A stretch of 40,082 bases of DNA from Synergistaceae bacterium (lineage in GTDB: Bacteria > Synergistota > Synergistia > Synergistales > Aminobacteriaceae). The notes under the pieces were generated by a model. The model did no database searches, had not been told where the DNA came from, and saw only the letters and a program-made list of their open reading frames with translations. Both the position numbers and the translations under genes were made by a program. The DNA lies in the NCBI GenBank assembly GCA_031272035.1, contig JAISUO010000111.1, positions 1 through 40,082 of the forward strand. Reading direction: 5' to 3'. Shown in pieces: positions 11,354 to 14,144 of the stretch (positions are counted from its first letter, which is position 1; every line of letters begins with the position of its first letter).

Positions 11354-11401
11354 AAGAGGTCCTTTCAGCGTCATATTGTGAAGTGCCGATTAAAGCCAAT
11401 A

Positions 11402-11502
11402 ATACCAATTTGAAATAAAAGGCCTAAAGTTAGAATAGCTAAAAGCAGTGATATTCAAACATTAGCTTCTTCATTAACGCTCGGTTGAAAGCAAATTGGT
11501 AT
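11402..11502 (-). repeat. 101-bp inverted-repeat element, copy A (MITE-like)
   Basis: The ends ATACCAATTTG and CAAATTGGTAT are perfect 11-bp terminal inverted repeats. The 101 bp are the exact reverse complement of 14038-14138. A TA lies one base inside each end, so the core could be CCAATTTG...CAAATTGG flanked by a TA duplication, as left by IS630/mariner-type transposases. It has no coding capacity. It lies just upstream of the MFS gene. Confidence 0.92.
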
Positions 11503-11526
11503 AAAACTAAGCGGTCGAATGCACCG

Positions 11527-11577
11527 CAGCTGCGCTGAATTTTCGTCAGATCTGCGCAGGCAGATTCAGCGCAGTTG
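11527..11577. repeat. Inverted repeat downstream of the PhzF-like gene
   Basis: Arms CAGCTGCGCTGAAT (11527-11540) and ATTCAGCGCAGTTG (11564-11577) are complementary apart from one G/T pair, around a 23-nt loop. It starts 3 bp after the PhzF-like stop. It could protect or end that transcript, but there is no T-run. Confidence 0.6.
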
Positions 11578-11580
11578 GCT

Positions 11581-12363
11581 CTAATCAGCGTTTACGTAAA
11601 TTTCAGCTTCGGAGAAAAGCGCAGCTTTCCCGCTCAATAGAATGCGTTCCCCCAAGTATTGACAGTAAAGGACACCGCCCCGGGCGGAAGCCTGATACGC
11701 TGTCCATTCATTAGAGCCGGTTTTCCCCGCCCACAGCGGCACCACATGACAATGCCCTCTTCCGCAGACAGGGTCTTCCGCCACGTTACATTTCGGGGCA
11801 AAGGATCGGGTCACGCAATCATATTGTTCGCCCAAGGCGGTGATATGCAGGCACAGTCCCTCCATCCTGCGGATGAGTTCCTGATTTGCCGTGACCCCCC
11901 GGACTTGAGCCTCATTCTCCAGCACACAGACCAGGTCCGCGCCCATGTACGCCTCAACGGGCATGACGCCCAGAGCCGCGGCCATGTCTTCTGTGACAGG
12001 AATGGGCGTGAGTTGGAAAGACGGAAAATCCATCGTCAACATATCGCCGTTTTTCTCCACCGTCAGCCGCCCGCTCAGAGTGTCGAAAGCCACTGTCGTC
12101 AACTCCGGCCGCACGAAGCGGAAAATGACATAGGCGGTGGCCAGGGTGGCGTGGCCGCAGAGTTCCACTTCGCCGCCCGGCGTGAACCAGCGCAGATGAC
12201 AGACATTCCCCTCTTTAACGGCAAAAGCTGTTTCAGAGAGGTTGTTTTCTGCTGTAATTTTCATCATCAGTTCATCCGAGAGCCAGGCATCCAGAATGCA
12301 GACAGCGGCAGGGTTGCCGCCAAATACCCTGTCCGTAAATGCGTCAACTACATATTGTTTCAT
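11581..12363 (-). CDS. PhzF-family isomerase-like protein
   Basis: The 260-residue protein belongs to the PhzF (DapF-like fold) family. Seen are the N-terminal VDAFTDRVFGGNPAAVCILD with the conserved G-N-P-A, NLSETAFAV with the catalytic-type Glu near residue 45, FTPGGEVELCGHATLATAYV, and a C-terminal EDPVCGRGHCHVVPLW, where most members have GSGH. In phenazine producers PhzF isomerises dihydro-hydroxyanthranilate; no other phz gene is here, so this is a family member of unknown substrate. AAGGAG precedes the ATG. It follows a MocR-type regulator gene on the same strand, and a 17-bp palindrome lies about 100 bp upstream of its start, so regulation by that neighbour is plausible. Both genes lie between the two perfect copies of the 101-bp element. 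Confidence 0.9.
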   Translation of the reverse strand: MKQYVVDAFTDRVFGGNPAAVCILDAWLSDELMMKITAENNLSETAFAVKEGNVCHLRWFTPGGEVELCGHATLATAYVIFRFVRPELTTVAFDTLSGRLTVEKNGDMLTMDFPSFQLTPIPVTEDMAAALGVMPVEAYMGADLVCVLENEAQVRGVTANQELIRRMEGLCLHITALGEQYDCVTRSFAPKCNVAEDPVCGRGHCHVVPLWAGKTGSNEWTAYQASARGGVLYCQYLGERILLSGKAALFSEAEIYVNAD

Positions 12364-12464
12364 TTTTGCGCTCCTTCTCTATATTTATTTTTAAGCTTCT
12401 TTATATTCTTTTAATTCTAACTTCCCTAATATTAATATAGAAAAATACGCCACACAATATATTT

Positions 12465-12481
12465 ATTGTACGGCGTACAAT
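12465..12481. promoter_or_regulatory. Palindrome upstream of the PhzF-like gene (operator candidate)
   Basis: ATTGTAC and GTACAAT are perfect arms around GGC. A further half-site TTGTAC lies at 12569-12574. The region down to the start codon at 12363 is very A+T-rich and would hold the promoter. The MocR-type regulator encoded just upstream is the obvious candidate to bind it. Confidence 0.5.
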
Positions 12482-12595
12482 GTTTTAACGATGCTCAGGC
12501 AGTGCCTGGAAATAAAATTTACAACTTCCTGCTTTTAATGTTACTGCACCTATTTTTAAGTGAATGAATTGTACACCTCAGTTTCAGGCGCTCCA

Positions 12596-13972
12596 TCAGG
12601 ACTCGATCAGCTCCGCTAATATTTTTATCCCCTTTTCAAGCTGTTCCAAGTCTTTGGGAGCACAGATGGAAAGCCGAACGGCATGAGCAGGGGGTGTTTT
12701 GCCTATGGCAAACCTTTCTGCCGCATAAACCTGGACACCCTTTGAAAGCGCAATATCTTCAAATCCCTTACCTGTATGTCTTTCAGGCAACAGCAGCCAT
12801 CGAAAAATATCTGTTTCTTTTCCTCGGCATATTTCTCCTGAGAGCCATTGATCGACGACCAGGCTTCGCAATGCCGTATTATCTTTATGGTTTTCAATTA
12901 TAGTTTCAAATTGCCCGGAAGCTATAATACGAGCTGACAATTCCGCCATCAAGGGAACAACCGATACATTCAAATTATAAAGTGCGTCCGAAACGGCACT
13001 TTTATAAAGCGGCGGCACTGACAGATATGCTATTCTAAGTCCGGGGGCTATTACTTTTGATAAGGTAGCGATGTAAATGCCCTTATTTTTAATATAGTCA
13101 GATATGGCGGTCATGCCGGTTTCCATAAGCTGATAGGTTCCATCTTCAATCAAAATACAATCATGCTGTGTCGCAACCTTTGCAATTTCCATCCTTTGCG
13201 CTTCCGGCATTGTAATCGTAGTGGGGTTATGGCAAGCCGGAATAACGTATATGCCATTCATTCTTTCCCGGTTGCATATCGTTTCCAGGGCGCTCACATC
13301 CATGCCTTCATCACCCTGAGGAACAGGAATTAGCTGTATTCCCAACATTGCGGCTGCGGTTTTGATCCCTGGATAGGTATGTTCGTCCACAGCAATTTTG
13401 TCACCGCGTTTGAATACAGCGGCGAGAACGGCGGACAGCGCATTTTGCCCGCCACTGGCAAACAGGACTTGTTCGCGGTCAATATTGTGACCACAACAGC
13501 TTAACAATCTAACTGCCGCATCTTTTTGCCATCCCATTGTCCGATCTGTTTGATAGCTGAACAGATCGACAGCCTGGGCGTTATTGGTAATCTCCTTCAG
13601 CATTTGCATTAAAACCGCATTGCCCGACGACTCTGGAACGGTGGCGCCCATATCGATGTTACCATCAATATTTTCCGATACAAGTCGCCTATTTGTAAGC
13701 GCACCGTAAGACACGAATGTTCCATTTCCAACCGTAGCAGATAATAACCCCTTTAACTCGCACAACTTAAAGGCTTTTGATACTGTGCTTACATTCAGAT
13801 CAAGGAAATCGGCAAGCTCCCTTTGTGGAGGCAGTTTTGTACCGGGTTTAATTACCCCGTCTGTAATATCCTGTTCTAATTGACGGGCTAAACTTTGATA
13901 TAAAGATCTGTTGCTTCTATCCAGTTTCGGTTTCCATGTCAAAGGGTAATCTTCAAAAGAATTGACTGGCAC
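12596..13972 (-). CDS. MocR-type regulator (GntR HTH plus aminotransferase-like domain)
   Basis: The 458-residue protein joins a winged helix (SLYQSLARQLEQDITDGVIK, then LPPQRELADFLDLNVSTVSK and a G-x-G-T-F wing) to a fold-type I aminotransferase-like domain. The latter has ASGGQNALSAVLAA, a D/Y region near VIPACHNPTTI, and the PLP lysine in TLSKVIAPGLRIAYL. MocR proteins sense amino-acid or vitamin B6-like ligands through PLP and usually control a neighbouring gene. GTG at 13972 is chosen because GAGGTG lies six bases upstream; an ATG at 13993 has no such site. Codons and bases are visibly more A+T-rich than in core genes here (13021-13080 is 40% G+C by count, against 60% in 23101-23160). 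The gene was probably acquired. Confidence 0.9.
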   Translation of the reverse strand: MPVNSFEDYPLTWKPKLDRSNRSLYQSLARQLEQDITDGVIKPGTKLPPQRELADFLDLNVSTVSKAFKLCELKGLLSATVGNGTFVSYGALTNRRLVSENIDGNIDMGATVPESSGNAVLMQMLKEITNNAQAVDLFSYQTDRTMGWQKDAAVRLLSCCGHNIDREQVLFASGGQNALSAVLAAVFKRGDKIAVDEHTYPGIKTAAAMLGIQLIPVPQGDEGMDVSALETICNRERMNGIYVIPACHNPTTITMPEAQRMEIAKVATQHDCILIEDGTYQLMETGMTAISDYIKNKGIYIATLSKVIAPGLRIAYLSVPPLYKSAVSDALYNLNVSVVPLMAELSARIIASGQFETIIENHKDNTALRSLVVDQWLSGEICRGKETDIFRWLLLPERHTGKGFEDIALSKGVQVYAAERFAIGKTPPAHAVRLSICAPKDLEQLEKGIKILAELIES

Positions 13973-14006
13973 AATTATCACCTCGCCGAGCATCCATTAA
14001 TTGAAA

Positions 14007-14019
14007 TGTTCATTGAACA
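14007..14019. promoter_or_regulatory. Palindrome upstream of the MocR gene (possible autoregulatory operator)
   Basis: TGTTCA and TGAACA are perfect arms around one T, 35 bp before the GTG start. A second palindrome ATACGTAT lies at 14023-14030. These would overlap the regulator's own promoter. The sites differ from the palindrome before the PhzF-like gene. Confidence 0.35.
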
Positions 14020-14037
14020 TTCATACGTATATGATTG

Positions 14038-14138
14038 ATACCAATTTGCTTTCAACCGAGCGTTAATGAAGAAGCTAATGTTTGAATATCACTGCTTTTA
14101 GCTATTCTAACTTTAGGCCTTTTATTTCAAATTGGTAT
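14038..14138 (+). repeat. 101-bp inverted-repeat element, copy B (MITE-like)
   Basis: It is identical over 101 bp to the reverse complement of copy A at 11402-11502, with ATACCAATTTG and CAAATTGGTAT ends. It fits between the end of the FCD/GntR gene, 6 bp away, and the promoter region of the MocR gene. Complete identity points to recent movement or conversion. Confidence 0.92.
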
Positions 14139-14144
14139 GAAACA

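Follow-up and report, generated by a model that had tools for sequence, protein, structure and literature searches.

A MITE family with TNA target duplications in a Synergistaceae genome and its probable mover in trans, an IS630-family enzyme

Introduction

RUP, a repeat of Streptococcus pneumoniae, is among the described systems closest to the one reported here. At 107 bp it is of similar size, it is present in many copies, its ends resemble those of the IS630 family (we liken the two by description), and the duplication that it makes is TA. It has been proposed that RUP is moved by IS630-Spn1 (PMC3049150). Nezha, a MITE of cyanobacteria, has likewise been matched to an insertion sequence by its ends, with ISNpu3-like elements as the proposed movers, as it is cited in the same work (PMC3049150); here too the comparison is by description, not sequence. 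BOX elements of the pneumococcus are also modular small repeats, but their modules are different (PMC3049150), the modularity in our case lying in an insert of 53 bp that follows base 24 and in the tandem arrays of relatives. As for target sites, the IS630-Tc1-mariner superfamily is described as using TA, with TAA in Fot elements, and Pogo/Fot elements also have a 3-bp duplication instead of TA (PMC7386202).

The family described here differs from RUP in its TNA duplication, its Synergistaceae host, its 154-bp version and its conserved left module, and from Pogo/Fot, which are eukaryotic and have TAA only, in that the middle base varies. No MITE family of Synergistaceae was found in the literature searched, and this one is, as far as our searches show, new for the group. 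Its wider interest is twofold: its ends and its 3-bp TNA duplication tie it to a widespread IS630 subgroup of a superfamily usually called TA-specific, and its left module, common to MITEs whose tips differ, offers a concrete and testable starting point for asking how such passengers adjust to a new transposase.

The two repeats and their boundaries

The window (the whole stretch of 40,082 nucleotides that was analyzed) contains two 101-bp sequences, at 11402-11502 and 14038-14138, whose cores are identical as exact reverse complements and end in ATACCAATTTG / CAAATTGGTAT, 11 bp each. Extended to 104 nt (11402-11505 and 14035-14138), the inverted-repeat arms are 99% complementary. Copy 1 lies 27 bp 5' of the ATG of an MFS gene, and copy 2 lies 44 bp 5' of a MocR gene and 6 bp 3' of the stop codon of a GntR/FCD gene. 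Between them are a PhzF gene (PF02567) and the MocR gene (GntR plus aminotransferase domains), the latter with a G+C of 0.43-0.47 against 0.51-0.59 in most adjacent stretches; none of the genes of the enclosed segment codes for a transposase or for a recombinase. All this agrees with an earlier note on this DNA, which had described perfect 101-bp inverted elements with 11-bp ends, both just upstream of genes (MFS and MocR), enclosing a PhzF-like gene and a low-G+C MocR gene and no transposase; inverted-pair detection and the domain content gave the same picture.

The boundaries of the element were set by its flanks. Of the 38 complete copies in the genome, 32 have the same three bases on either side, and nearly all flanks are of the form TNA. 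At the middle base the two sides match in 92% of copies, against a chance expectation of 31%, and a 4-bp duplication was seen in none of the 38. Since the exact TNA duplication lies outside it, the element proper is 99 bp long, TACCAATTTG...CAAATTGGTA, with perfect terminal inverted repeats of 10 bp. Copy 1 occupies 11403-11501 (+ strand), between TAA at 11400-11402 and TAA at 11502-11504; copy 2, in the opposite orientation, occupies 14039-14137 (- strand) between TGA at 14036-14038 and TGA at 14138-14140 (flanks read on the + strand). Both assignments rest on pair detection, genome copy search and flank analysis. Besides, in two tandem pairs the copies are exactly 3 bp apart with a single TNA (TCA) between them, the spacing expected from insertion into a duplicated target. 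The earlier note had read the TA one base inside each end as suiting an IS630/mariner-type transposase acting in trans. The IS630 part of that reading holds up well, by the shared tips, the subterminal bases and the duplication rule described below, but the TA duplication, classical for the superfamily, is replaced here by TNA.

These sequences have several of the features by which MITEs are recognized. The element is 99 bp long (the usual limit being 600 bp), has terminal inverted repeats and a target-site duplication, carries no transposase gene and is present in many dispersed copies. It also has an end in common with an autonomous type of insertion sequence: over 27 bp, its right end agrees at 85% with the end of an element on contig C55 of the same genome. 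The left end matches known IS ends over no more than ca. 10 bp.

Copy number, variants and placement

The window belongs to a 3.18-Mb Synergistaceae MAG assembly (G000) of 122 contigs, and the relatives named below are Synergistaceae MAGs as well, which, to judge by their isolate names, may come from termite guts. The genome has a minimum of 42 copies of full or nearly full length, spread over many contigs, and seven of these are 100% identical to the window copies; about ten solo ends come in addition. As 40 of 70 candidates were scored, these copy counts are lower bounds. The end pattern TNATACCAATTTG gave 119 matches with at most one mismatch against none for a reversed-pattern control, so the repetition is far beyond chance. 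The earlier note had proposed the recent spread of a mobile element, and had named a genome without further copies, together with the same arrangement in all relatives and no empty sites, as evidence against it. The genome-wide search, which it had suggested, clearly goes in favor of the spread. Its 21-base core had no match in the viral contigs searched, and the whole element none in the plasmids.

Not all copies have the same structure. A few are incomplete on one side, and about ten are longer by an insert of 53 bp that follows base 24. This 154-bp version occurs on contigs C6, C18, C39, C50, C80, C92 and C108 (L059-L068), and contigs C35 and C39 begin inside it, i.e., the assembly breaks there. 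Left ends (TNATACCAATTTGAAGTAAAAGGCC or a TAGTG version) that lack a right end were seen at L103, L104, L113, L044, L088 and others, several of them directly adjoining terminator-like hairpins; right ends on their own are less common.

The copies lie between genes. No copy was placed within an open frame, though some of the ends run into the end of one. With genes assigned by a simple rule (longest frame), 33 copies have one on each side; the two neighbors are convergent for 12 of these copies, divergent for two and point the same way for 19. This placement fits promoter avoidance, and a similar preference for regions between convergent genes is described for RUP (PMC3049150).

Candidate helper transposases

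IS630-family transposases (PF13358) are present in half of the ten genomes searched, and the host lineage includes DDE_3 transposases of this family within elements whose ends match those of the MITE. The autonomous elements have the tip TACCAA(G/T)TTG. One, on contig C59 of G012, ends in TACCAAGTTGCAATC and codes for its transposase in two overlapping frames (winged HTH plus DDE_3), and another, of 1119 bp on contig C114 of G024, reads TACCAAGTTGC...GCAACTTGGTA (tips TACCAAG...CTTGGTA) between two TGA. The genome itself holds a single member of the subgroup, the C55 element already mentioned, which lies at the end of its contig, cut by the contig end and with its second frame broken; a search of this genome for an intact helper turned up only that broken copy, and the transposase search in viral contigs gave no relative. 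The resemblance of the C55 element to the MITE right end is with the termini aligned, and in copy 2 it corresponds to 14040-14066 (+ strand, tip inward).

Outside the host lineage, a cyanobacterial plasmid element (Acaryochloris pMB01) reads TACCAATTTG...CAAATTGGTA between two TCA, and the 10 bp of its tip are identical to those of the MITE. The two-frame elements of Acaryochloris pMB01, Azospirillum p6, G024 and G012 all have TACC tips, measure ca. 1.1 kb and are mostly flanked by TNA; they differ from the MITE in coding for a transposase and, like the known IS630-type ends in general, in lacking its left module. Matching flanks were also found for other distant members on annotated plasmids, those of Azospirillum (TGA/TGA), Lichenicola (TAA/TAA) and Rhizobium (TTA/TTA). 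The plasmid elements of Paraburkholderia and Caballeronia are flanked by TTA/TTA as well, but have TTC tips. The exceptions without a matching duplication are the G012 element (TTA/TAG) and that of Pararhizobium (TGA/TTA), and no ends were recognized for four further plasmid elements. TNA is thus the target duplication of most members of this IS630 subgroup with identified ends, a subgroup that with its TACC tips spans Synergistaceae, cyanobacteria and alphaproteobacteria. We found no report of TNA duplications in bacterial IS630 elements in the open-access literature.

There is another class of enzymes that also makes TNA duplications, the IS5/IS1031 type (PIF/Harbinger-like), and a transposase of that kind would fit the flanks. 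However, a single DDE_Tnp_1 (PF01609) protein was found in the genome and its locus has no TACCAATTTG-type MITE ends at up to one mismatch, save one TATAGTGAAT-like chance site, while the IS630-type elements have the tip, the subterminal bases and the duplication of the MITE. We consider an IS5/IS1031-type helper improbable.

The copy number, the duplications and the shared ends are established. We are confident that both window sequences are independent copies of one MITE family inserting at TNA, with an IS630-family enzyme as its most likely mover in trans. According to this reading, the 99-bp, non-autonomous element with its 10-bp terminal inverted repeats would insert at TNA between genes, whereby those 3 bp would be duplicated. 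Its helper would be an IS630-family transposase coded in two overlapping frames (winged HTH plus DDE_3), from elements with TACC tips and TNA duplications. The choice of this enzyme class as the most likely mover is drawn from the common tips, the subterminal sequence and the duplication rule.

Other IS630-type elements were seen in these genomes. A second type, with TAGCAATTTGACA ends, is found at L161 (G012, contig C63), with the flanks TTTTA/TAAAA, and at L163 (contig C53 of G000), where it is cut by the contig start. At L160 (G031, contig C90) an IS630-type transposase is followed by the end TAGTGAATTT; it is a candidate for moving the TAGTG-tipped MITEs described next.

A conserved module at the left end

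Positions 9-46 of the element, which we call module M (TTGAAATAAAAGGCCTAAAGTTAGAATAGCTAAAAGCA; 11411-11448 on the + strand in copy 1, 14092-14129 on the - strand in copy 2), are far more conserved than the rest. They are 95-100% identical in MITEs of G012, which belongs to another genus, 82-95% identical in TAGTG-tipped MITEs of G001, G002, G022 and G031, and 79% and 87% identical in two further relatives with TACC or TACA tips. The remaining 53 bp give an alignment identity with these relatives of only 46-74%. For coding regions compared between these genomes, the identity is 68-76%. The TAGTG-tipped MITEs have apparent TA duplications, which could be told apart from the inverted repeat only with the help of empty sites. 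The core of the module is present in 10 of 188 Synergistota genomes, from six genera of one family, both by itself and as part of MITEs or tandem arrays. Such arrays were seen at G020:C9:13165-13533, G020:C38:10966-11207 and G022:C1:13644-13823, with periods of ca. 71, 42 and 41 bp.

It is possible, and we put it forward only tentatively, that this left module of ca. 38 bp (TTGAARTAAAAGGCCTAAAGTTAGAATAGCTAAAA) acts in cis, and that MITE families of several Synergistaceae genera, some tipped TACC with TNA and others TAGTG with apparent TA, either exchange it or retain it under selection. A conserved host factor, or a transposase domain that the helpers share, might bind to it, and the MITEs could then switch helpers by a change of their tips alone.

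The strong conservation of module M across genera could also be taken to mean that the repeat is kept by the host for a regulatory or RNA role, such as that of a promoter, a terminator or a small RNA, and the + strand does fold somewhat better than shuffled sequences, by a modest margin (z -2.75). Yet the copies favor downstream and convergent positions, promoter and terminator scans stay at the level of shuffled sequence with no such site within either copy, and an Rfam search around the elements gave nothing of note, with no family matching them. A role of this kind seems to us quite unlikely.

The two copies in the window

If the copies are members of a dispersed MITE family, the question is whether their arrangement as an inverted pair has any meaning of its own. 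The earlier note had described them as bracketing a regulator/PhzF segment and had suggested that the enclosed 2.5 kb could invert. The flanks speak against a mobile unit between the copies and against such an inversion. Inversion by recombination between the copies would swap the inner flanks and break both duplications, and the outer ends of a composite transposon would be expected to share a single duplication. Here both duplications are intact and they are different, which indicates two independent insertions; the outermost flanks (TAA and TGA) differ, so the pair is not a composite transposon, and the match at each copy means that the segment has not, in the assembly, become fixed after being inverted an odd number of times.

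The perfect inverted identity over 101 bp at a distance of 2.5 kb could permit a rare RecA-dependent inversion, and the pair might then be seen as a functional switch flipping the PhzF-MocR segment. We regard this as very improbable, since the duplications would no longer match after an odd number of inversions, the copies are part of a scattered repeat family with at least 42 members, and the enclosed segment has no recombinase gene; a rare flipping of the segment may still occur in the population. No more credible is a composite transposon formed by copies 1 and 2 that brought in the MocR gene (with PhzF), in spite of the lower G+C of that gene and the position of the block in relatives, given the different outer flanks and the perfect duplication of each copy's own. 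The window copies are independent insertions of the MITE and play no special part together. For the window itself this is an ordinary situation, and beyond the two insertions the repeats are uninformative on PhzF and MocR.

In the same region of G003 and G022 there is no element beside the GntR gene, and the intergenic DNA there cannot be aligned. Comparison of the window with relatives gave no true empty site, because their coding regions align and their intergenic DNA does not. The MocR gene (12596-13993) stands out by its lower G+C than its neighbors, and in relatives the MFS-PhzF-MocR block does not adjoin the conserved GntR gene. From these two features together the block may have been acquired; judged by the duplications of the MITEs, this is unrelated to them.
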